Below are positions 7,462-26,694 of a stretch of 27,031 bases of DNA, in pieces. Under the pieces are notes generated by a model. It ran no database searches. It was not told where the DNA came from and worked only from the letters and a program-made list of their open reading frames with translations. Each line of letters starts with the position of its first letter. The first letter of the stretch is position 1. The position numbers and the translations under genes are program-made. The DNA is from a virus. The stretch is taken from the IMG/VR virus record IMGVR_UViG_3300004806_000080, positions 1-27,031 of that record. One strand, written 5' to 3'.

Positions 7462-8664
7462 TTAGTTTTTGATGTGAATCGTTTTACCATGTTTTGCAAC
7501 TGCATCATTACCTCCACAAATTGCCCATAACAACGGTGATGGCCAGTCATTGCCCCAGTCACTACCCACATACCCATCGGTTAGCATGACGATGCACTCA
7601 GGCACAATCTTCTTCTCGTTGAGATATGTAGACACGCAACTTGGTGATGTACCACCCCCACCCTTGGGCTTAGTAGAGTTAACGATATCTGCCACTGCAC
7701 TCCCTTCGTATTCTTCGTGACCCGCAACCTCGCCGTCCCAGTAGATGATGTCCACCTTCTCGGGATTGACCTCCTCGGCTACGCCCTTCACTTCGGATAA
7801 GAACTCTGCCATCTCTCTGTTGCCCACCGAACCCGACGTATCTATCGCTATCACAAGATGACCAACCTTCTCGCCAATCATGCTCGGCATATACACATCG
7901 CCCGACAGATAGCGTCGGTTAACCCTACGCCAAGATGAGGTGTCTTTGTTACTGCATGTAGATTTCACAAACTCACGCAACACCTCACGCCAATCCACCT
8001 TGGGTGCAAGCAATTCTTCTAGCTCTCGGTCTCCACCGAGCCCGCCCTTACCCGCAATCTTTTGCTGAGCCATGAGTCCTTGTCTTACGGCTTGGTCAAT
8101 ATCCCTAGCTAAGTCCTTCTTCTCCTCCTCGCTCATACCCTTGGTCGCTTCATCCCAATCATGGACATCGAACCCTTCGCCACCGCCATCTCCGCCCGAC
8201 CCATCATCCTCCTCTTTCAGTATGTCGAACACTTGCTTGCTGTGCATACCTCGGAACCGCTCATCGATAAGACCCATCAACTCGCCACGCTTCGCACCTG
8301 ACTTGTATCTAGGAAATGCTATGACGCTTTCTTCGGTATCTGAGTCGGCGAGCATCAAGTTAATGACGTAGTCACAAGCACCATTGGCCAGCCTTGGATC
8401 TTCTTCGTACAGTTTCCTGTATGTAGTGAGGTGACGATACATCTTGTGTGATGCTTCATGTGCAATTACAAACGCAAGCTCTTTATCAGTAAGCTCGTTA
8501 ACGAATGCACGCCCATACACCTCATCACGCCCGTTAGTCCTAGCCGTCGGTGTGTTATCGTCTACTGACGTACGACCAACCATCAATATGCCAGAGAGCA
8601 ATGCAAACTTGGGGTTACGCATCAAACTAATCTTGGCCTTCTGCACTTTCCGTTCTTCATTCAT
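7462..8664 (-). CDS. DUF2201-type putative metallopeptidase with C-terminal VWA-like domain
   Basis: In the 400-residue protein an HExxH zinc motif (H69-E-A-S-H73) sits in a putative peptidase domain, followed by a Gly/Asp-rich linker (about 151-170). A VWA-like domain starts near 265: MIDAS DTSGS at 275-279, a Thr in GGGTS at about 339 and TDG at 362-364. This two-domain layout is that of DUF2201 proteins, which pair with MoxR-type AAA+ ATPases; the ATPase is the next gene upstream. The frame extends to 8685, but its first codons lie inside a palindromic operator. The ATG at 8664, preceded by AAAGGAAC, is the better start. The cellular target is unknown. Confidence 0.88.
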   Translation of the reverse strand: MNEERKVQKAKISLMRNPKFALLSGILMVGRTSVDDNTPTARTNGRDEVYGRAFVNELTDKELAFVIAHEASHKMYRHLTTYRKLYEEDPRLANGACDYVINLMLADSDTEESVIAFPRYKSGAKRGELMGLIDERFRGMHSKQVFDILKEEDDGSGGDGGGEGFDVHDWDEATKGMSEEEKKDLARDIDQAVRQGLMAQQKIAGKGGLGGDRELEELLAPKVDWREVLREFVKSTCSNKDTSSWRRVNRRYLSGDVYMPSMIGEKVGHLVIAIDTSGSVGNREMAEFLSEVKGVAEEVNPEKVDIIYWDGEVAGHEEYEGSAVADIVNSTKPKGGGGTSPSCVSTYLNEKKIVPECIVMLTDGYVGSDWGNDWPSPLLWAICGGNDAVAKHGKTIHIKN

Positions 8665-8678
8665 CTTCAGTTCCTTTC

Positions 8679-8692
8679 CTGACATTTGTCAG
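8679..8692. promoter_or_regulatory. Palindromic site 3 (CTGACATTTGTCAG)
   Basis: This perfect 14-bp core lies in the 52-base gap between the AAA+ gene and the metallopeptidase gene, 15 bases upstream of the latter's ATG. The ATGTCAGG on the minus strand creates a false Met-Ser-Gly start. No promoter is visible in the gap. Confidence 0.75.
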
Positions 8693-8716: not shown

Positions 8717-9793
8717 TTACAGTAGGTCTTGGTTCTTGGCAACCCAGTCGCTGAACGCTTTGCAACTGAACGCAATGCCTTGCTTGCTCGGTGTCTTGGC
8801 AATGTTGATCGCAAACACGGCTTGCCACTCGGCATCGAATCGGCTTAGGTATTCCATGAATGGTGTAATGGTTTCCTTAGTCAGTCGGCTAATCGCACCG
8901 AACACCACGATGGCACATGCACCCGCACTTGTAGGTATGGATGTTGTCTTAGGGTTAGTGATGGTCGCTTCCCATGTCGGTAGTTGGTCTGAGAACTCAA
9001 TGTACGCTTGCATATCCCTAGCACCTGACTCGCCGATAGCACCTGTTAGAGCTACGATGACAGTATCAGGGTCTAGTTGTTTCCTCGTTTTCACGATGTT
9101 CGATGCAGTCTCCAATGAGCGAGGGGATACAAACGCCTTCTGATTACTCTTGGGTGAATAGATGTAAGGGTTGTCACCCGCACCGCCATCGGTATAGCTT
9201 GCCAATACTTGCGGAAACCGATTGACCCACGCAATCACCTCGGGCTCGATACCTTTGTTCATCGCCCACTCGATCCACTCCTCGGCATCGGGCTTGCGAA
9301 TACGCACGGGAACCAGTCGGTTACGGCTATGTGCTTTCAGGTTATCGCCCACGCCGTCGGTTGACAAGTTACCAGTCAAGAACACGATAGTCGGAGGGCT
9401 ATTTGGTGCATTTAGTGGGATGTCACCGAGTCTAGGATTGGCCTTCTCTAGCATGGGATGGAGCATATTCTTCACTGGCTCAGCACCCTTAGTAAACTCG
9501 TCGAGCATGATGACCAGTGGTTTGCCTTCATGGATTTTGAACCTAGCATTGGGATAATACTTGGTAGTCTTGGTGTTGTGGTCAATCACAGGCATGGCAA
9601 TGTCACCTAAGTCCATGTTCGGCACATCGATGTAAGCATGCTCGTAGCCCATGCCGTTAGCTATACTCTCCAATAGGGATGACTTACCAATCCCAGGCTC
9701 ACCTTCAAGTAGAAAGCGGGTTGTTGGGTTGGCTTGAATTAATGCGGATGCTTGCTTGAGGGTAATTGACTTACCGAAATTAATTTCTGACAT
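8717..9793 (-). CDS. MoxR/CobS-like AAA+ ATPase
   Basis: The 358-residue protein is a AAA+ ATPase of the MoxR/chelatase clade: Walker A GEPGIGKSS (31-39), Walker B VIMLDEF (94-100), sensor 1 Asn142 in LTGN, and an arginine-containing AHSRNRLVPVRI segment near 155. MoxR ATPases form rings that remodel proteins or insert metals with VWA partners. Here the partner is the DUF2201 gene 52 bases downstream. The open frame begins at 9835 inside palindromic site 4; AAGGAA before the ATG at 9793 marks the likely start. A strong promoter lies at 9881-9909. Its phage role is unknown. Confidence 0.92.
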   Translation of the reverse strand: MSEINFGKSITLKQASALIQANPTTRFLLEGEPGIGKSSLLESIANGMGYEHAYIDVPNMDLGDIAMPVIDHNTKTTKYYPNARFKIHEGKPLVIMLDEFTKGAEPVKNMLHPMLEKANPRLGDIPLNAPNSPPTIVFLTGNLSTDGVGDNLKAHSRNRLVPVRIRKPDAEEWIEWAMNKGIEPEVIAWVNRFPQVLASYTDGGAGDNPYIYSPKSNQKAFVSPRSLETASNIVKTRKQLDPDTVIVALTGAIGESGARDMQAYIEFSDQLPTWEATITNPKTTSIPTSAGACAIVVFGAISRLTKETITPFMEYLSRFDAEWQAVFAINIAKTPSKQGIAFSCKAFSDWVAKNQDLL

Positions 9794-9827
9794 TTTTAGT
9801 TCCTTCTGTTTTGCATTTGATTGAATT

Positions 9828-9843
9828 CCTGACATTTGTCAGG
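9828..9843. promoter_or_regulatory. Palindromic site 4 (CCTGACATTTGTCAGG)
   Basis: This perfect 16-bp palindrome lies about 31-46 bases downstream of the predicted start of transcription from the promoter at 9881-9909 and 35 bases before the AAA+ start codon. It is therefore inside the 5' leader, suited to roadblock repression or to acting as an RNA stem. Confidence 0.78.
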
Positions 9844-14512: not shown

Positions 14513-17017
14513 ATGGCAACAAGTAGTATAGATAAAGCACTTTATCAGGCACCTATGGGCTTGGACGGGATAAATGACGCTGCAATTGAGATACAAATTG
14601 AGATGGAGCCAGATGAAGAAGGGGGCGGAGACTTTGATGTCAGTATGGAACCGCAAAAAGATTCTGATCCAGAATTCGATGTTAATTTAGCCGACTACCT
14701 GCCCGAGAGCTATATTGAGTCTTTGGCGCATGAGTTGGTTGATGACTTTACCAAAGATAATGGAGATAGGAAAGATTGGATACAGACGTACATTGACGGC
14801 TTAAAGTTATTGGGCTTGAAGTACGAGGAAAGAACTGAGCCTTGGAACGGGGCATGCGGCATATTCCACCCCATGTTAACTGAGTCAGTTGTACGTTTTC
14901 AGTCTGAGGCAATTACAGAAACATTCCCAGCGATGGGGCCAGTGAAGACCCAGATTGTCGGTGCGATAGACAAGATGCGTGAAGAAGCCGCTGCTCGCGT
15001 GCGCGAGGATATGAACTATCAGTTGACTGAAGTAATGCAAGAGTATAGGCCCGAACATGAAAAACTTTTATGGTCATTGCCCTTGGCGGGATCCGCATTT
15101 AAGAAAGTCTACTACGACCCAAGTAAAGGTAGACAAGTTGCAACTTTTGTCCCAGCAGAAGATATCGTTGTCCCTTATGGCGCGTCTAGCATGGACAGCG
15201 CCGAGCGCGTCACGCACGTGATGAGGAAGACTAAAAACGAAATCATGAAGCTGCAAGATAAGGGCTTTTATAGTGATATAGATCTAGGCGAACCGAGTCA
15301 TGAACTAGACGACATCGAGAGACAAAAAGCGATGGAGCAAGGGATGACAGCCATACAGGATGATCGGTATAGGCTCCTAGAGATGAGTGTTAATCTAGAC
15401 ATTCCCGGGTATGAACATAAGAATAGCAAGGGTGAAGAGACAGGTATAGCACTACCGTATATTGTTACTATCGAGAAGGGTAGCACTAAGATTCTAGCCA
15501 TCCGTAGAAATTGGTACGAAGAAGATCAGCTTCATATGAAGCGCCACCACTTTGTGCATTACCAATATATCCCTGGGTTTGGGTTTTATGGGTACGGCCT
15601 TATCCACTTGATTGGTGGGTATGCTAAGTCGGCGACGATGATCCAACGTCAGTTAATCGATGCAGGTACTCTATCTAATCTACCCGGCGGTTTGAAATCT
15701 CGTGGCCTACGTGTAAAGGGTGACGATACACCGATTGCTCCCGGAGAATTTAGGGACGTGGATGTGCCTTCCGGAAGTATCCGCGATAATATTTTACCAC
15801 TACCTTATAAAGAACCAAGCCAAGTTTTGTTTGCTTTGCTACAAAATATTGTGCAAGAAGGTAAAGCGTTTGCGTCTTCAGGAGATATGAACGTAAGTGA
15901 TATGTCTAGCCAAGCCCCAGTGGGTACAACGTTGGCTCTATTGGAGAGAACGCTAAAGGTGATGACAGCGGTGCAAGCTAGATTGCACTTTGCGATGAAG
16001 CAAGAGTTCAAGTTACTCAAGGTAATCATAGCCGACTACTGCCCAGAAGAGTATAGCTACGACCCCGCCGAGGGAGATAGGAAAGCCAAGAAGTCCGACT
16101 ACGACATGGTGGACGTGATTCCTGTTAGCGACCCCAACGCAGCAACAATGGCACAGAAGATTGTGCAGTATCAAGCGGTATTGCAGTTAGCCCAGTCAGC
16201 TCCACAGTTGTACAACTTACCCCTGCTCCATCGCCAGATGATTGAGATTTTGGGTATAAAGAACGCAGCCAAGCTCGTGCCTACGCAAGATGACGAGATA
16301 CCAACAGACCCCGTGCAGGAGAACCAGAACTTCCTCACAGGTAAACCCAACAAAGCGTTCATTGAGCAGAACCACCAAGCGCATATCTCTGTGCACCAAG
16401 CGATGATGCAAGACCCCATGATGCAGCAGATCATCGGTCAAAACCCACAAGCGCAGACGATGCAAGCGGCGATTATGGCCCACATCAATGAGCACTTGGC
16501 CTTCTCATATAGACAGAAGATTGAACAACAGATTGGCCTACAGTTGCCCCCGCATGACGATAATGACCCGTCTAAAAACAGGATGGATCCACAGATGGCG
16601 GATCAGATTGCTCAATTGGCAGCGCAAGCAGCCCAGCAGTTACTACAGCAGCATCAAACCCAAGCCGCACAACAGCAAGCTCAGCAACAAGCGCAAGACC
16701 CAATCATCCAAATGCAGCAGCAAGAACTACAAATTAAACAGCAGCAGTTGCAGCTTCAAGCTCAGAAACAACAATCCGAAGCACAAGCCAAAATGCAGCA
16801 GTTGCAGATTGAGCAAGCTAGGATCGAGGCCCAAAAACAAATCGCCGCTATGCAGGTAGGGGCAACGGCTGCCGCAGCTAAAGACAAACTAGATAAACAA
16901 ATGCACCTTGAGGGTACAAGGCTAGGCGTGGATATTAGCAAGCACAAAGCACAGATTAATCAACAGCGCCAGCAATCTTTTATGCAATCTGCGAAAAACA
17001 AACCTAGAGGGGAATAA
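14513..17017 (+). CDS. Portal protein with long Gln-rich C-terminus
   Basis: The 834-residue protein forms the dodecameric portal through which DNA enters and leaves. Typical features are an acidic N-terminus, WNGACGIFHPMLTESVVRFQ (about 115-135), a basic clip-like segment and a YIPGFGFYGYG motif near 360. The place after terminase and before scaffold fits. From about 690 to 780 it is dominated by Gln and Ala (runs such as QQQAQQQAQ), forming a long helical barrel or coiled coil like the C-terminal barrel of P22-type portals, then a basic tail. AAGGA precedes the ATG. Its size exceeds that of most siphovirus portals and suggests a podovirus. Confidence 0.9.
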   Translation: MATSSIDKALYQAPMGLDGINDAAIEIQIEMEPDEEGGGDFDVSMEPQKDSDPEFDVNLADYLPESYIESLAHELVDDFTKDNGDRKDWIQTYIDGLKLLGLKYEERTEPWNGACGIFHPMLTESVVRFQSEAITETFPAMGPVKTQIVGAIDKMREEAAARVREDMNYQLTEVMQEYRPEHEKLLWSLPLAGSAFKKVYYDPSKGRQVATFVPAEDIVVPYGASSMDSAERVTHVMRKTKNEIMKLQDKGFYSDIDLGEPSHELDDIERQKAMEQGMTAIQDDRYRLLEMSVNLDIPGYEHKNSKGEETGIALPYIVTIEKGSTKILAIRRNWYEEDQLHMKRHHFVHYQYIPGFGFYGYGLIHLIGGYAKSATMIQRQLIDAGTLSNLPGGLKSRGLRVKGDDTPIAPGEFRDVDVPSGSIRDNILPLPYKEPSQVLFALLQNIVQEGKAFASSGDMNVSDMSSQAPVGTTLALLERTLKVMTAVQARLHFAMKQEFKLLKVIIADYCPEEYSYDPAEGDRKAKKSDYDMVDVIPVSDPNAATMAQKIVQYQAVLQLAQSAPQLYNLPLLHRQMIEILGIKNAAKLVPTQDDEIPTDPVQENQNFLTGKPNKAFIEQNHQAHISVHQAMMQDPMMQQIIGQNPQAQTMQAAIMAHINEHLAFSYRQKIEQQIGLQLPPHDDNDPSKNRMDPQMADQIAQLAAQAAQQLLQQHQTQAAQQQAQQQAQDPIIQMQQQELQIKQQQLQLQAQKQQSEAQAKMQQLQIEQARIEAQKQIAAMQVGATAAAAKDKLDKQMHLEGTRLGVDISKHKAQINQQRQQSFMQSAKNKPRGE

Positions 17018-17214
17018 TGGAAGCTGATCGAGTGTTACATCACCTTTTACGAGAACTTGACAAAATCGTAAAAGAGCAAACTGAGTTTTTAGGAAGCGGC
17101 TCAGCAAAAGACTTTGCTGATTACCGTTACGTCTGTGGGACTATCCGGGGTCTAGGCCACGCAGAAATTCTTGTCAAAGACCTCGTGCAACGTTTGGAGA
17201 TAGATGATGAGTGA
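17017..17214 (+). CDS. Hypothetical phage protein, 65 aa
   Basis: The ATG shares one base with the portal stop (TAATG) and the end overlaps the GroES-like gene. The helical protein (EADRVLHHLLRELDKIVKEQ, then YRYVCGTIRGLGHAEILVKD) has two amphipathic helices and no named motif. Small proteins of this look often follow phage portal genes, so a head-assembly accessory role is likely but unproven. Confidence 0.8.
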   Translation: MEADRVLHHLLRELDKIVKEQTEFLGSGSAKDFADYRYVCGTIRGLGHAEILVKDLVQRLEIDDE

Positions 17215-17617
17215 GTTTGACGTTAATGCTATTGACTTATCCGGTATTCTTAACAAGGATCCCGAGCAGAAAGCAAAGCAAATTCCAGATCCAAAAGGGT
17301 TCATGCTACTAACCGTAGTCCCTGAAGCAATGGAAGAGTATGCAGACAGTGAGATTGGGATTATTAAATCTAGCCAAGAAATTTGGAAAGAGGAAATGCT
17401 TACCCCCGTCTTATTTGTGATCAAGATGGGCCCCGAAGCCTATTCTGATATTACGCGGTTCCCCAGTGGCCCCCGCTGCAAGGCAGGTGATTTCATTATC
17501 TGCAGACCCAATTCAGGCACACGCTTGAAAATCCACGGCCGAGAGTTTCGTCTAATTAATGACGATAGCGTCGAAGCTGTTGTTGAAGATCCGCGCGGAA
17601 TTACCCGTGCTGCATAA
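17207..17617 (+). CDS. GroES-like co-chaperonin
   Basis: Residues 25-130 of the 136 follow the GroES beta-barrel plan: a first strand (GFMLLTVVPE), a mobile-loop-like stretch (EEYADSEIGIIKSSQEIWKE), then VLFVIKMGPEAY, CKAGDFIICRPNSGTRLKI and the closing EFRLINDDSVEAVVEDP. Phage-encoded GroES-like proteins replace or modify host GroES so that GroEL folds the capsid protein. The place between portal and scaffold fits head assembly. GGAG is spaced 7 bases from the second of two ATG codons, used here. The mobile loop lacks the classical GGIVL, but ...EIGIIK... is close. This call is from pattern and needs a structural check. Confidence 0.8.
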   Translation: MSEFDVNAIDLSGILNKDPEQKAKQIPDPKGFMLLTVVPEAMEEYADSEIGIIKSSQEIWKEEMLTPVLFVIKMGPEAYSDITRFPSGPRCKAGDFIICRPNSGTRLKIHGREFRLINDDSVEAVVEDPRGITRAA

Positions 17618-19926: not shown

Positions 19927-20838
19927 ATGGCTATTTCACGTGCACAACTATTGAAAGAGTTGCTCCCAGGTTTGAACGCATTGTTCGGTCTAGAGTATGC
20001 TCGCTACGGCGAAGAACACAAAGAGATCTATGAGACTGAGACCTCTGAGCGTTCTTTTGAAGAAGAGACAAAATTGTCTGGTTTCTCTGCAGCACCTGTT
20101 AAAAACGAGGGCACCGCCATCGCTTACGACAATGCGCAAGAAGCATGGACAACACGTTATAACCACGAAACCATTGCTTTGGGTTTCTCAATCACTGAAG
20201 AGGCGATTGAAGATAACTTGTACGACAGCTTGTCTGCTCGTTACACCAAAGGTTTGGCTCGTGCTATGGCATATACCAAGCAAGTTAAAGCTGCTTCCGT
20301 TCTAAACAACGGTTTCACTTCTAGCTATGTTGGTGGTGACGGCGTGTCTCTATTCAATACTTCTCACCCCTTGGTGAATGGTGGTACAAACTCCAATACT
20401 CCTTCTACCCAAGTTGATTTGAACGAGACTTCTTTGGAAGCCGCCGTTATTCAGATCGCCGCTTGGACAGATGAGCGTGGTCTTTTGATCGCTGCCAAAC
20501 CCAAGAAATTGGTGATTCCTCCCTCATTGATGTTCGTTGCAAAACGTTTGTTGGATACCGAACTCCGCGTAGCCACAAACAACAATGACATCAACGCTAT
20601 CAAGCAAATGGGCGCGATTCCTGAAGGTTACACAGTTAACCACTTCTTGACCGATCCCAATGCTTGGTTCTTGACCACTGATGTGCCAAACGGTATGAAA
20701 CATTTCATCCGTACTCCCTTGGCTCAGTCAATGGACGGGGACTTCGACACTGGTAACGTGCGTTATAAATCACGCGAGCGTTATTCTTTTGGATGGTCTG
20801 ATCCTCTCGGAATCTGGGGTTCTTCAGGTTCATTCTAA
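19927..20838 (+). CDS. Major capsid protein (Mu gpT-like, HK97 fold expected)
   Basis: The 303-residue protein is recognised from YGEEHKEIYETETSERSFEE, the SGFSAAPVKNEGTAIAYD segment, RYNHETIALGFSITEEAIED, then TSHPLVNGG and the closing YKSRERYSFGWSDPLGIWGS. These are features of Mu gpT-type major head subunits, which adopt the HK97 fold. The place after scaffold and the strong AAGGAG before the ATG fit its role as the most abundant virion protein. A strong hairpin terminator follows. No N-terminal delta domain or protease site is obvious, consistent with a separate scaffold. Confidence 0.92.
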   Translation: MAISRAQLLKELLPGLNALFGLEYARYGEEHKEIYETETSERSFEEETKLSGFSAAPVKNEGTAIAYDNAQEAWTTRYNHETIALGFSITEEAIEDNLYDSLSARYTKGLARAMAYTKQVKAASVLNNGFTSSYVGGDGVSLFNTSHPLVNGGTNSNTPSTQVDLNETSLEAAVIQIAAWTDERGLLIAAKPKKLVIPPSLMFVAKRLLDTELRVATNNNDINAIKQMGAIPEGYTVNHFLTDPNAWFLTTDVPNGMKHFIRTPLAQSMDGDFDTGNVRYKSRERYSFGWSDPLGIWGSSGSF

Positions 20839-22239: not shown

Positions 22240-22950
22240 ATGTCACGCAGTACATTTGAAGGCCCAATCCTATCGGGCGACTCACGTTTTGGCCCCCTAC
22301 GTAATGTAGGATATACCCAACTCGTTCAAAACGTTGATTTTAATTTTGCCAATACAACTGGTAACGGTTCTGCTGGTTATCCCGGTGGTAATGGTCAATT
22401 TGTTAATGGCAATTTGATCCCCAACACCAATGCAGTTGTGTATACACCTTCTGCTTCTGTATCCCCCCCAGTAGCGGCAACAATTACTGCTGACGCAGCT
22501 ACAACCGTGTATCGTGGCGCAGTGATGTATCTCCCACAAGGCTGCCAAATTGTTGATGCAATTGTCGATGTTGGTACAGCGGTTGGCACTTCAGGCGCTA
22601 CATTGACTGCAGCTTCTGTGTTGATCGGTAATGCGTTTAATGCTTCTACTTACGCTACAACTACTTTGACTGTAGCTACAAACGCTATTACTGCTGGTCG
22701 TTATACACCAACTTATTCAGGCGCTAATTTGATTGCATTGCAGTCTACAACTCAAGATATTACACAAACTGTATATCAAGGTTCAGGCCCCGGATCAAGC
22801 ATCATGTCGCAAGTTGTATTTACATTGGTGTTGACAGGTACAACAACCCCTGCGCCTAATGCCGGAACTATGTATTTTACACTCCGCTATGTACAGCCTG
22901 ACAATAACATTGGTACATTGACAACTTACCCCTACGGTAATTTTGATTAA
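22240..22950 (+). CDS. Virion structural protein, beta-rich, 236 aa
   Basis: The first residues MSRSTFEGPILSGDSRFGPL are a signature I associate with phage structural proteins encoded after the capsid gene. The rest is strand-rich and dominated by Thr, Ala, Ser and Gly (for example TITADAATTVYRGAVMYLPQ), with no cysteine-rich or catalytic motif beyond isolated Cys. Likely a head-surface or tail-associated structural protein. AAGGA 6 bases before the ATG. Its own promoter and a strong hairpin afterwards suggest a separately adjusted, abundant product. Confidence 0.78.
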   Translation: MSRSTFEGPILSGDSRFGPLRNVGYTQLVQNVDFNFANTTGNGSAGYPGGNGQFVNGNLIPNTNAVVYTPSASVSPPVAATITADAATTVYRGAVMYLPQGCQIVDAIVDVGTAVGTSGATLTAASVLIGNAFNASTYATTTLTVATNAITAGRYTPTYSGANLIALQSTTQDITQTVYQGSGPGSSIMSQVVFTLVLTGTTTPAPNAGTMYFTLRYVQPDNNIGTLTTYPYGNFD

Positions 22951-22954
22951 TCTC

Positions 22955-22972
22955 TAGGGGCTTCGGCCCCTA
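22955..22972 (+). terminator. Hairpin after the 236-aa gene
   Basis: TAGGGGC-TTCG-GCCCCTA has a 7-bp stem and c(UUCG)g loop. No U-run follows (TCTTCAACC), so it is more likely a partial terminator, processing site or mRNA-end protector than a full stop. Confidence 0.6.
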
Positions 22973-22997
22973 TCTTCAACCTTTAAGGAGATTATTC

Positions 22998-23846
22998 ATG
23001 GGACAATTTGTTGGATCACCATCTTCGGTTACCCAAAGAGGTCAGTACGAACCTTTTGATTTGCAAGTTTCTCGCAATCAAATTGCGTATCACACGCCGT
23101 TAAATATTTTTGGTTATGGCACAACTGGCACAACAGCCGGATTGTTTGTAACCATGTGGGAGAACTCTCCTACAACCAACTATGTATTTCCATCAAGCGC
23201 CGCAGTCATGTATGTGGCTAGTACCGTTGGCGCAGGTGATGCTGGGGCGTTGATTCAAGTCACTGGGCTCGATGCGAATTACAACCCTCAATCTGAAATA
23301 GTTGCATTGGGCGGCACTGCTGGCACAGGCGTAGCAACAACTAAATCGTATTTTAGAATTAACAACATTTCTGTTGCATTGGCTAGTACAGTAAATCCTA
23401 CTGGTCAAATCACGATTCAGAATCAAGCTGCTACTTCTGGTGCTGTTGAGTACGCACAGATCAATACAACGACCTATAACGGTAGCACTGTGAGTTTAGG
23501 TACTTCACAGATGGCTGTGTATACAGTTCCAAACAACTACACGGCTCAGTTTACTAGATTTACTGCAAACAGTTCTTTTACAGGCAATACTGCGAATTAC
23601 ACAACTTATAGAGCAGTTGCACAGTATCCGTCCGTATTAAACTCTTCAGCTACATTGGTTAAACGTGTTGTTCTAAATACACCATTTGTTCAGCAATACA
23701 ATATTCAACGTACATTCCCATTCGCTTACCCAGCTGGAACAGACATCCAGTGGCAGATTGCACCTAGCGCAACTACTGCAGCAACAGTAGGAATTAATAT
23801 TGGTGGGGTATTGATCGCAAACAGTGTGGATTCTGGAAGCAAATAA
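22998..23846 (+). CDS. Virion structural protein, beta-rich, 282 aa
   Basis: The protein MGQFVGSPSSVTQRGQYEPF then DLQVSRNQIAYHTPLNIFGY is rich in Thr, Ser, Ala and Asn, with strand-like alternation throughout and no enzymatic motif. It resembles the type of the preceding gene and may be its partner. A surface or tail-related virion role is inferred from composition and position before the holin. AAGGAG 7 bases before the ATG. The stop shares one base with the next ATG (TAATG). Confidence 0.75.
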   Translation: MGQFVGSPSSVTQRGQYEPFDLQVSRNQIAYHTPLNIFGYGTTGTTAGLFVTMWENSPTTNYVFPSSAAVMYVASTVGAGDAGALIQVTGLDANYNPQSEIVALGGTAGTGVATTKSYFRINNISVALASTVNPTGQITIQNQAATSGAVEYAQINTTTYNGSTVSLGTSQMAVYTVPNNYTAQFTRFTANSSFTGNTANYTTYRAVAQYPSVLNSSATLVKRVVLNTPFVQQYNIQRTFPFAYPAGTDIQWQIAPSATTAATVGINIGGVLIANSVDSGSK

Positions 23847-24091
23847 TGGCAACGACTCCTGCATGGCAACGCAAAGAGGGAAAGAATCCGAAGGGCGGAT
23901 TAAACGCCAAAGGAAGAGCATCCGCAAAGAAGCAAGGGATGAATTTAAAACCTCCACAACCCGAGGGCGGCTCAAGAAAGAAATCGTTTTGCGCCCGAAT
24001 GGAGGGGATGAAGAGCAAGTTAACGTCAGAGAAGACGGCGAAAGACCCAAACAGCCGGATTAACAAAAGCCTTCGGGCGTGGAATTGTTGA
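23846..24091 (+). CDS. DUF6321-type small basic protein, 81 aa
   Basis: The segments PAWQRKEGKNPKGGLNAKGR, KKSFCARMEGMKSKLTSEKT and the ending RINKSLRAWNC match the DUF6321 family as I know it, a short basic phage and bacterial protein. Function unknown; the basic residues suit nucleic-acid binding. It is coupled to the structural gene upstream by TAATG. The C-terminal residue is Cys, shared by two further proteins of this cluster. Confidence 0.82.
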   Translation: MATTPAWQRKEGKNPKGGLNAKGRASAKKQGMNLKPPQPEGGSRKKSFCARMEGMKSKLTSEKTAKDPNSRINKSLRAWNC

Positions 24092-24092
24092 T

Positions 24093-24293
24093 ATGACAAA
24101 CGCACACGACACTAAAAATATGGTCGATGGGGCTGTTGTGGTTATTGGCCTCGGCGGTTTCATGGAGTGGTTTCCACCCATTGTTGCATTGGTTGGCGGT
24201 ATACTAACAATTGTTTGGATGTGTATTCGTATTTGGGAAACCGACACTGTTAAATTTTTAATTGGCCGCAAAGGTATTGATGATGCCCAGTAG
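24093..24293 (+). CDS. Probable holin
   Basis: The 66-residue protein has hydrophobic stretches at about 12-24 (DGAVVVIGLGGFM) and 28-46 (PPIVALVGGILTIVWMCIRI), a short Pro turn, and a charged tail (WETDTVKFLIGRKG). Two membrane helices and small size are typical of class II holins, and the IRIWETDTV segment is familiar from holin annotations. It would permeabilise the inner membrane at lysis. No endolysin is seen in this window. The end overlaps the next gene by 14 bases. Confidence 0.78.
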   Translation: MTNAHDTKNMVDGAVVVIGLGGFMEWFPPIVALVGGILTIVWMCIRIWETDTVKFLIGRKGIDDAQ

Positions 24294-24825
24294 TTCAGCA
24301 AAACAACATAAGTTCATGGAAGCAATTGCCCATAACAAAGCATTTGCTAAAAAAGTTGGAGTATCGCAGAATGTCGGTAAAGACTTTAGCGAAGCCGACA
24401 AAGGTAAAAAGTTTGGTCGTGGTGGAGTGTCCCGCCCTGATTTGGAAAAATTAAACTCTGCCAAAACGAGACACGGCGAAATGGCTTTAATGAAAAAAGG
24501 TGGAATCATGAAATCGGAAAAAGCAAGCGAAATGCGTCAAGCTAAAACTTTGGAAAAACTCGCTAAAGAAGAGCGTGCTGAAGCCAAGGGCATGAAACGT
24601 GGTGGCCACACTAAAAAGATGGCTTCTGGTGGTATGACTACTGGCAAACATGGCATTTCTGAAAAAAGTGGTTTAACAACCGCTAAGATGGGTAAAGCCG
24701 AAGTGGGTGGTAAGCTCAAACACGGTGAACACAGTATCCAGAAAAAAGGCCATACACGTGCTATGGAGCCTAAGATGGGCGCAGGTAAGCCCTTGGGTAT
24801 GAAACGCGGCGGAAAAGCCTGTTAA
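24280..24825 (+). CDS. Basic MxKGG-motif protein, 181 aa
   Basis: Of the two consecutive ATG codons (24280, 24283) the first follows AAAGG at normal distance; the TTG further up is unlikely. The N-terminus SSSAKQHKFMEAIAHNKAFA then KKVGVSQNVGKDFSEADKGK is a conserved phage type of unknown function. The C-terminal half is Lys/Gly-rich with repeats MKKGG, MKRGG, MASGG and the terminal MKRGGKAC. It is probably disordered and nucleic-acid binding. Packaged DNA-associated or assembly role is a guess. The terminal Cys is notable. Confidence 0.78.
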   Translation: MMPSSSAKQHKFMEAIAHNKAFAKKVGVSQNVGKDFSEADKGKKFGRGGVSRPDLEKLNSAKTRHGEMALMKKGGIMKSEKASEMRQAKTLEKLAKEERAEAKGMKRGGHTKKMASGGMTTGKHGISEKSGLTTAKMGKAEVGGKLKHGEHSIQKKGHTRAMEPKMGAGKPLGMKRGGKAC

Positions 24826-24838
24826 TTAAGGAGTTATC

Positions 24839-25183
24839 ATGAAGCATCACGACCATATCGCAGACCATAAGCATCCATTTCATAGCGGTGGAGAAAAGCA
24901 TCACGGCAAGACCGAGTTGCACCACGCTCAACACCCCCATCCCGAAGAGCATAGCCACATTCATGCTATGAAACACGGCGGGCACGTTAAGCACCATCAC
25001 GAGCATATTGCCGAGCATATGAAAAAGCACGGTAGCCACCACGCTGAAGGCGGTCATATTCACCATCATGATCACGTTGCTAAGCACTTGGCACACCACG
25101 ATGGACACCATATGGCTAAAGGTGGAATGGCTCATCACCATGAGCATGTTAAAGCTCACATGAAGCATCACGACCACAAGTAG
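24839..25183 (+). CDS. Histidine-rich repeat protein, 114 aa, 38 percent His
   Basis: AAGGAG 6 bases before the ATG. Counting gives 43 His in 114 residues, with no cysteine. Three imperfect copies of about 22 residues (HHH[ED]H[IV]..H[ML]..H..HH..GG) are visible from about 50 to 114, with a shorter copy at the start. Motifs AMKHGG and MAKGG match the Lys-Gly-Gly signature of its neighbours. No similar family is known to me. Such a sequence would bind Zn, Ni, Cu or Co ions; a virion metal store, a pH switch or a structural cross-linker are all possible. Confidence 0.85.
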   Translation: MKHHDHIADHKHPFHSGGEKHHGKTELHHAQHPHPEEHSHIHAMKHGGHVKHHHEHIAEHMKKHGSHHAEGGHIHHHDHVAKHLAHHDGHHMAKGGMAHHHEHVKAHMKHHDHK

Positions 25184-25192
25184 GAGTTAATC

Positions 25193-25735
25193 ATGGCCAC
25201 AAGATGGGATAGAGTACCTAAGTTTGATGATGATGTTGTCAAGAGTACTATGGAAGATGCTCGCAAAGTCGGCAAAAGTACTTCCAATCTTAGAGGAGCT
25301 GCAGTTGATGCAGTTAAAGAAGCCGGTAGCCGAGCAGCTAGTCGCTTGGTTGGCCGTGCCGGTGCAGCAGGTGCTGCCCTTCAAGGTGGTTATGATATAG
25401 GCCGTGCCATCGATGAGTCTACAGGTCTTGGTAAGGCTATGGTTAATAAATCTGGACTTGGGGATGCGGCAGCTAAAGCAGCTACATCTGGAGAGCGAGT
25501 CACTTTGACCAAAGATGCGCAAGAACGTATTGACAAAGGAGCTTTAGATAAGAAGCCCATTAAACGTTCTGTGTCTAAAACAACGGTTAAGGCTGAGCCT
25601 GCAACCAAGTCCGATGATTACGAGGGCGACGAAGGCTATACAACCCTCAATATGAAAAAAGGTGGCATGGCCTCTGCATCTAAACGTGCTGATGGTAAGA
25701 TTACCAAAGGCCACACAAATTGCAAGGTGTGCTAA
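25193..25735 (+). CDS. Ala/Gly-rich basic protein with MKKGG motif, 180 aa
   Basis: The middle (about 32-100) is Ala/Gly-rich and could form amphipathic or membrane-active helices (GAAVDAVKEAGSRAASRLVG, then GRAGAAGAALQGGYDIGRAI). The C-terminus is disordered and basic, with NMKKGGMASASKRADGKITK then GHTNCKVC ending in Cys. TAGGAG precedes the ATG. Phage proteins with an A/G-rich helix and such tails are sometimes ejected or internal virion proteins; that is only an inference here. The next gene begins immediately after the stop. Confidence 0.78.
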   Translation: MATRWDRVPKFDDDVVKSTMEDARKVGKSTSNLRGAAVDAVKEAGSRAASRLVGRAGAAGAALQGGYDIGRAIDESTGLGKAMVNKSGLGDAAAKAATSGERVTLTKDAQERIDKGALDKKPIKRSVSKTTVKAEPATKSDDYEGDEGYTTLNMKKGGMASASKRADGKITKGHTNCKVC

Positions 25736-26014
25736 ATGATGGCGAGCCGGGGCATGGGCGTAATCAGCCCTTCAAAAATGCCCAGCAAAAAAACTATACA
25801 TCGTAAGGATAGTCCCCAAGATGTTGAAATGTATAAAAAAGGCGGCGGAGTAAATGCTGCTGGTAATTACACTAAACCCAGTCTGCGTAAACGGATTGTG
25901 TCGCAAGTAAAAGCCGCAGCAACTCAAGGTACAGGTGCGGGTCAATGGTCAGCCCGCAAAAGCCAACTAGTTGCAAAAAAATATAAAGCAGCCGGAGGCG
26001 GTTATCGTGACTGA
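25736..26014 (+). CDS. Basic phage protein (GQWSARKSQ type), 92 aa
   Basis: The gene starts directly after the preceding TAA and has no separate ribosome binding site, implying reinitiation. The C-terminal half (AAGNYTKPSLRKRIVSQVKA then GAGQWSARKSQLVAKKYKAA and GGGYRD) is a conserved unit found in many phages, which I recall as DUF5872 (name from memory). MYKKGGG repeats the neighbour motif. The gene overlaps the endonuclease gene by 8 bases. Function unknown; strongly basic, so DNA or RNA binding is plausible. Confidence 0.8.
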   Translation: MMASRGMGVISPSKMPSKKTIHRKDSPQDVEMYKKGGGVNAAGNYTKPSLRKRIVSQVKAAATQGTGAGQWSARKSQLVAKKYKAAGGGYRD

Positions 26015-26465
26015 GGCTATAAAAACTTGTACAGATTGTGGAGAATCAAAACCTTTGTCTGCTTTTCGCAGTCGAGGTGGAGAAATGAAACATCTTTACA
26101 AAAGCCACTGTAACACTTGTCTATACAAAAGACACAAAGATTGGGCTGAAGATAATCCACATCGAATTGCTGAGTATCGTGAAAAAGATCCTTGGACATT
26201 AGCTAAAAGATGCAACCGTCGCGGGATAACGCCTGAACAACTTGTTGATTGTTATGAACGACAAGAAGGATGTTGTGCAATTTGTAAAAATGAAATTGCT
26301 CTAATTGGTAGTGCAATAGATCATAATCACGATACTGGAGAGTTTCGCGGTGTGTTATGTAAACAATGCAACAGAGCTTTAGGTATGTTTAAAGACAGCC
26401 CTATAGTATTACGTAATGCGCTAGAATACTTAGAAGAATTTGGGAACTATGGAAATGGCGCTTAA
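26007..26465 (+). CDS. Endonuclease VII-like HNH nuclease
   Basis: The 152-residue protein combines an N-terminal zinc finger (C8-x2-C11 and C35-x2-C38) with a C-terminal endonuclease VII/HNH core: C90-x2-C93, then AIDHNHDTGEFRGVLCKQCN with D105-H-N-H108 and C118-x2-C121, followed by RALGMFKDSP. Endonuclease VII cuts branched DNA before packaging in T4; this homologue may do that or be a mobile nuclease. The start is a GTG at 26007, supported by GGAGG 8 bases upstream; the TTG at 25971 has no such site. Confidence 0.88.
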   Translation: MTEAIKTCTDCGESKPLSAFRSRGGEMKHLYKSHCNTCLYKRHKDWAEDNPHRIAEYREKDPWTLAKRCNRRGITPEQLVDCYERQEGCCAICKNEIALIGSAIDHNHDTGEFRGVLCKQCNRALGMFKDSPIVLRNALEYLEEFGNYGNGA

Positions 26466-26694
26466 ACCCACCCAGCAATCGCTCAAAAATTGGGGCGATC
26501 AAAAATGGCGAACCAAAAGCGGTAAGCCATCAAGCAAAACGGGTGAGCGGTATCTTCCGGAGGCCGCAATTAAATCTTTGTCTCCTTCAGAGTATGCGGC
26601 AACGACAAAAGCAAAGCGTAAAGGTAAGGCAGCAGGTAAACAATTTGTAGCCCAACCCAAGACGATTGCAAAGAAAACAGCAGGATTTAGATAA
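26455..26694 (+). CDS. Basic phage protein, 79 aa
   Basis: Three in-frame starts exist. GGGAA is 8 bases before the ATG at 26455, chosen here (ATG at 26449 is possible). The protein, MALKPTQQSLKNWGDQKWRT then SGKPSSKTGERYLPEAAIKS and SEYAATTKAKRKGKAAGKQF, is a conserved type in phages of this kind, Lys-rich and probably nucleic-acid binding, of unknown function. The start overlaps the nuclease gene by 11 bases, and the stop shares one base with the next ATG. Confidence 0.78.
   Translation: MALKPTQQSLKNWGDQKWRTKSGKPSSKTGERYLPEAAIKSLSPSEYAATTKAKRKGKAAGKQFVAQPKTIAKKTAGFR

Follow-up and report, generated by a model that had tools for sequence, protein, structure and literature searches.

Comparative sequence evidence indicates that a small gene in the late region of a phage genome is genuine and encodes an evolutionarily conserved, hitherto undescribed protein of which more than one third is histidine. 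The gene lies in the window, i.e. the whole stretch of 27,031 nucleotides that was analyzed (IMG/VR record IMGVR_UViG_3300004806_000080), and the putative function of its product is probably metal-ion binding or an acidity-dependent change of charge. The features of the locus are:

24828–24833, plus strand: ribosome binding site AAGGAG of the His-rich gene, read from the sequence; AAGGA is kept in relatives
24839–25183, plus strand: His-rich protein gene, 114 aa, 43 His; ATG at 24839, stop codon ending at 25183
24971–25042, plus strand: repeat 1, KHGGHVKHHHEHIAEHMKKHGSHH, residues 45–68 of the His-rich protein
25043–25114, plus strand: repeat 2, AEGGHIHHHDHVAKHLAHHDGHHM, residues 69–92
25115–25180, plus strand: repeat 3, AKGGMAHHHEHVKAHMKHHDHK, residues 93–114

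The content of 43 histidines in 114 residues, with no cysteine, given in a preliminary description was confirmed for this frame, as was its normal ribosome binding site, located 5 nt before the ATG. The same description had reported repeats of about 22 residues; three full repeats and a weaker N-terminal copy were indeed found, and the period, close to that estimate, is exactly 24 residues. Gly-Gly pairs head the repeats at residues 17, 47, 71 and 95, and self-identity at a lag of 24 reaches 41% across residues 45–114. Across the remaining late genes of this stretch, histidine represents 1.6% (66/4117) of the encoded residues, a rate at which 43 in 114 has a binomial P of about 1e-46. Neither a signal peptide nor a membrane segment was seen in the sequence of the protein.

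Scanning of IMG/VR with degenerate patterns identified 31 loci holding a relative of the 114-aa form, five of which (L001–L005) are essentially the window's own virus. Seventeen distinct full-length long-form proteins showed 75–100% identity to the window protein, and their length of 113–114 aa was constant across every full-length copy. The median pairwise dN/dS of the 114-aa genes was 0.07 (26 pairs with usable dS), and CAT/CAC codon swaps were observed at 23 of 29 invariant His positions, so that the DNA varies while histidine is retained. As judged from these comparisons, the gene is under strong purifying selection that retains both its length and the positions of its histidines. The earlier view of a translated, real and undescribed phage protein is supported by this conservation and selection, by a conserved genomic slot and by the lack of matches in Pfam, PHROGs and PDB sequences. 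An antisense frame at 24770–25177 (minus strand), hydrophobic and open for 135 codons, could be taken for the real gene, the His-rich frame then being an artefact. The probability of this is negligible, and the frame was rejected as a by-product of the His codons: CAY on the opposite strand reads RTG (Met/Val), so that its openness is a consequence of the sense codons, substitutions at sense third positions would alter the antisense Met/Val codons, and both the ribosome binding site and the operon are on the plus strand. In a 5.5-kb contig (L006), two different long-form alleles were observed about 1.8 kb apart (1–243 and 2030–2380), possibly a tandem copy or alternatively an assembly chimera.

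A neck adaptor protein (L012:1499–2488) used as query retrieved 80 related contigs. The closer adaptor relatives carried, upstream of the adaptor gene, a shorter His-rich protein of 61–81 aa with 17–43% His, which the more distant ones lacked at this place. Searched against IMG/VR, a short-form profile (A2) brought up 133 relatives, and 80 of them were retained. After filtering, both forms pooled amounted to 60 distinct proteins with 19–43% His, a few of them trimmed by script at a later start, and looser family matches extended down to 17% His (L208 and L211). The core of low-His members reads GGH[VKM]HHxxx[YF]xxH[AS]AGHxxH[HD][DE]H[VI]xxMCGGG; relatives with 17–25% His retain the fixed positions GGH-HH...H.AGH..H plus MCGGG, which argues for defined ligand positions rather than bulk histidine. 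Long and short forms have slot and motifs in common (26-row alignment), and as the match between their profiles was modest (probability 75%, E 2.6e-5, 43 columns), their orthology leans on synteny as much as on sequence. Most short forms end in a GG(K)AC or MCGGG tag, which is absent from the long form of 113–114 aa. A pattern-only scan for the repeats revealed no new distant member, the extra contigs L053 and L060 having no His-rich frame of the family, and the zero obtained with profile A3 in the genome of L030 reflects a limit of this profile, which missed the long form there.

Searches outside this family were negative. Neither Pfam nor PHROGs nor the PDB sequences contained a match to the His-rich protein of the window, which bears out the earlier statement that no described phage family explains it, and the short forms gave no significant match to Pfam or PHROG profiles. 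Searches of isolated phages by tblastn and blastn gave no match, a result weakened by the low-complexity masking of BLAST. Two scans of bacterial and archaeal genomes (84,980 prokaryote species genomes) found no relative and thus no clue to a host or prophage, and no described case was found in the literature on His-rich proteins of phages. Phage proteins with such a richness in histidine therefore appear to be undescribed as a family, in structure or in the literature. What is new is the phage setting, His-rich and presumably metal- or pH-responsive polypeptides being known as a class.

The genomic context of the gene was analyzed from the portal gene onwards:

14513–17017, plus strand: portal protein, with relatives in phages HTVC023P/027P, CRP-901/902, Pag-Yong1, DSL-LC04 and 023Pt_psg01
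19927–20838, plus strand: major capsid protein (Mu gpT-like)
22240–23846, plus strand: pair of presumed accessory proteins of the capsid (cement-like), encoded behind the major capsid protein, the second matching phrog_8198; synteny with DSL-LC04
23846–24091, plus strand: DUF6321 protein, first of a small-protein cassette
24283–24825, plus strand: QH-domain protein, 180 aa, directly upstream of the His-rich gene (phrog_16759, 4e-19)
25193–25735, plus strand: small cassette protein with a C-terminal KKGGMASASKRADG..KGHTNCKVC tag
25736–26014, plus strand: small cassette protein phrog_17747, common to HMO-2011, Pelagibacter, Roseobacter and Methylophilales phages
26440–26694, plus strand: small cassette protein phrog_14910, followed in identical contigs by the neck adaptor gene (L004:11856–12791)

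The small-protein cassette spans from the DUF6321 gene (23846) to phrog_14910 (26694), and the slot of the His-rich family lies between the capsid/cement and neck-adaptor genes, next to the QH-domain gene. The gene had been placed in a translated cluster near the holin; the supposed holin (24093–24293) has no Pfam or PHROG match and its label is only plausible. The neighbourhood fits the capsid-to-adaptor part of the head module better than a lysis region.

The same cement-adaptor slot is occupied in HTVC023P-, CRP-901- and DSL-LC04-like phages by other small proteins with GG motifs, and the GGKAC or MCGGG endings of these GG-tagged proteins are also found on short His-rich forms. Unlike the His-rich family, however, these cassette proteins are rich in Lys, Met and Gly and contain 0–6 His (0–2 in those of DSL-LC04), and only one of 77 further contigs with the tag motif (L255) held a member of the family. 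Within this interval of L076–L139 and related contigs, several unrelated small proteins in each genome were seen to share a C-terminal tag of the type GG..SSASKRADGIAQRGKTKG..., often ending in MKxGGKAC or MCGGGM, which is possibly a targeting or packaging signal; one tag-bearing protein searched in isolated phages had no match.

The QH-domain gene lies directly upstream of the family gene, with a gap of at most 60 bp in most cases, as counted where it was on the contig and recognized by its pattern; minus-strand rows agreed. The N-terminus of the window's QH-domain protein matches the larger virion structural families phrog_22033 and phrog_25121, and the match in two E. coli jumbo phages, 121Q and JP4, falls inside genes whose annotation is structural protein or virion structural protein. 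The domain, of about 43 residues, is common to these podovirus-like phages and to jumbo phages, either alone or fused to virion structural proteins (window 24283–24825; phiKZ gene 165.1; 121Q genes 50/51). The tail of the QH-domain protein had a median of 10.5% His in carriers of the His-rich gene versus 2.5% in non-carriers, a contrast given without a P value as the contigs are related to each other, and one that shifts only slightly with the counting of the low-His carriers L208 and L211 as non-carriers. Since the adaptor contains 0.6% His in both groups, this enrichment does not reflect genome-wide composition, and similar proportions of Lys plus Arg in the tails (20.7% in carriers versus 22.3%) indicate that histidine was added rather than swapped for these residues. 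The window's own QH tail has only about 4% His, so that co-enrichment is a tendency of the clade to which single genomes need not conform.

A tree built from 99 adaptor proteins placed all 39 carriers inside one clade of 43 rows (support 97/96), which holds four non-carriers. Three of these contigs (L073, L074 and L077) include no more than about 330 bp ahead of the adaptor gene, leaving the slot out of view; in the fourth, L080, the slot is present and the His-rich gene is absent. Loss in relatives, which the preliminary description had named as counting against its proposal, was thus found once, evidencing that the gene is dispensable in at least one relative, while all other clade members with a readable slot retain it. 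The tree would be explained most simply by a single gain, at the base of the clade, and a single loss. In it the two forms are intermingled (L023, a long form, is placed among short ones), implying that the form changed or was exchanged more than once. The largest carrier contigs are of about 60–63.6 kb, and the carriers constitute one clade of freshwater (lake) phages, apparently lytic in lifestyle.

Among representative members, His pairs at i,i+4 were over-represented (z 4.6) and those at i+1 and i+5 depleted, in statistics drawn from related, non-independent sequences whose repeats count one pattern several times; for the window protein alone, only the depletion at i+5 gave a strong signal. 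The copper-type motifs HxxM and MxxH were tested and showed no enrichment. AlphaFold predicted a mostly disordered chain with short helices at low confidence (pLDDT 49 and 54), so that the helices, at residues 60–63, 74–85 and 99–107 of the window protein, represent weak evidence; they cover the HHHEHVxxH segments.

As to habitat, metagenomes 3300000439 and 3300000553 correspond to the epilimnion and hypolimnion of Trout Bog Lake, of pH 4.8, and 3300002835 to Lake Mendota, of pH 8.5 (PMC5636890), in which humic substances and iron are much lower than in Trout Bog (PMC6344600); 3300004806 (L205) is a McMahon-lab metagenome described as freshwater bog (PMC7449369). Carriers were found in 3300000439 (L014, L016, L162, L163 and L175) and 3300000553 (L173). 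In 3300002835 there were none, nor any verified non-carriers, and among the contigs from a tag-motif scan aimed at relatives in neutral lakes, none was verified as coming from Lake Mendota. The link of carriers to acid, humic water, drawn from few metagenomes of known source, is suggestive only. Metal binding, pH sensing or cross-linking, named as possible roles in the preliminary description, would be compatible with the i,i+4 spacing of histidines, with the core histidines retained in low-His relatives and with the acidity of source lakes.

Several known systems resemble the family in part. Tail fibre or spike tips of phages bind iron through HxH motifs, as in T4 gp37 and as proposed for Alteromonas phage R22Y (PMC11705849). 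The likeness consists of a phage protein with clustered histidines, His-X-His pairs and possible binding of iron or another metal; however, those are long trimeric fibres or spikes with isolated HxH pairs, whereas the His-rich family comprises mostly disordered proteins of 61–114 aa in the head/neck module with 17–43% His overall. Despite the presence of HxH pairs, identity with tail fibres or spikes was rejected on the basis of a size of at most 114 aa and a location between capsid and adaptor genes. Bacteria contain His-rich metal stores such as Hpn of Helicobacter pylori and the His-rich tails of SlyD, HypB and UreE, which are likewise small and cytosolic, with His runs and a similar His fraction. 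By contrast, the phage protein belongs to a late head cassette with no link to nickel enzymes; no homology of the Hpn type was detected in Pfam, PDB sequences or bacterial genomes, although the protein may work like such a store. Among eukaryotic pH- or metal-responsive His-rich proteins, which include hisactophilin, Plasmodium HRP2 and squid-beak and Nereis jaw proteins, hisactophilin (about 118 aa, about 31 His) is of comparable size and the structural ones have His/Gly repeats like those of the window protein. Homology was not detected in this case either, and the window chain is predicted to be disordered or helical, in contrast to the beta-trefoil of hisactophilin.

Our preferred reading, with a tentative probability of about 0.4, is that of a late head/neck accessory protein that undergoes metal-dependent folding or cross-linking and acts with the QH-domain protein. 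The product would be small, soluble and largely disordered, and its GGH-x-HHHEHVxxHMxxH units would form short helices with one face lined by histidines at i,i+4. In the host cytoplasm the helices would bind a divalent metal, most likely Zn, Ni, Cu or Fe, whereupon the chain would fold or cross-link to itself and to its His-enriched QH-domain partner, and the pair might then become part of the particle, or be enclosed in it, close to the capsid or neck. We infer this metal, partner contact and virion location from the fixed core histidines and the helical i,i+4 spacing, which favour ligands over bulk charge, from the head-module slot directly downstream of the QH-domain gene, the domain being one also found in proteins annotated as virion structural, and from the enrichment in histidine of the QH tail but not of the adaptor. 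Against it stand the lack of HxxM/MxxH enrichment, the low pLDDT, the non-independence of the spacing statistics and the loss in L080. At the lake pH of 4.8, histidine would be protonated and metal lost, which would limit any role of metal to the cell interior, a consideration that favours a role based on charge.

Such a role is the main rival, though a somewhat unlikely one: a pH-switched polycation of the virion, with little net charge at cytoplasmic pH but a strong positive charge in acidic water, would condense or neutralize DNA or adhere to surfaces when the pH is low, with release in the neutral cytoplasm. The computed net charge, from model pKa values that ignore repulsion, is indeed about +44 at pH 4.8, +3 at pH 7.0 and +0.5 at pH 7.5, several source metagenomes are from Trout Bog Lake or, for 3300004806, also from a bog, and neighbouring cassette proteins are Lys-rich and His-enriched. 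The habitat link, however, relies on few metagenomes and a heavily sampled lake, histidine did not replace Lys or Arg in the QH tail, and the specific His positions kept in low-His members are unneeded for bulk charge. It is less likely still that the protein remains outside the virion as a late cytoplasmic metal buffer or chaperone, like Hpn or nickel/zinc chaperones, holding metal for metalloproteins of the particle or buffering metal freed during host takeover. A small, soluble product lacking a signal peptide, encoded in a late operon and about as rich in histidine as known metal stores would suit this role, which accords poorly with the fixed place among small head-module proteins, with short-form tags suggesting the same destination as the tagged proteins there, and with the absence of a metalloenzyme gene beside it. 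A low-complexity linker or bulk protein enriched in histidine by neutral drift of repeat expansion could account for the range of 17–43% His and for the different repeat numbers of short and long forms; the low dN/dS, the silent variation of invariant His codons, the conserved length of the long form and the parallel enrichment in the adjacent gene make it improbable.

On a wider view, held with considerable doubt, the QH-domain and His-rich proteins might constitute a phage metal-loading or pH-sensing system of acidic, humic, iron-rich lakes, in which the virion head/neck would switch state between lake water of about pH 5 and a neutral cytoplasm. With its graded content of 17–43% His, a constant partner in the genome and a sister clade from which the gene is missing, the family provides a natural experiment on the reasons a virus could have for a histidine-laden head module. 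If particles do load metal or switch with pH, this would represent a new form of environmental sensing or metal carriage in phage biology and would bear on the idea of phages as metal carriers in natural waters.

Three further features of these genomes were observed. HNH-type endonuclease-like frames, identified by reading of the sequence only (window 25971–26465; L030 9034–9534), interrupt the series of small cassette genes, at sites that differ between genomes. A GroES-like co-chaperonin gene (window 17204–17617, phrog_3188), also annotated in related isolate phages, lies between the portal gene and the scaffold region. In the early region, adjacent genes on the minus strand (window 7462–8685 and 8717–9835) encode a DUF2201 metallopeptidase/VWA-like protein and an AAA ATPase.
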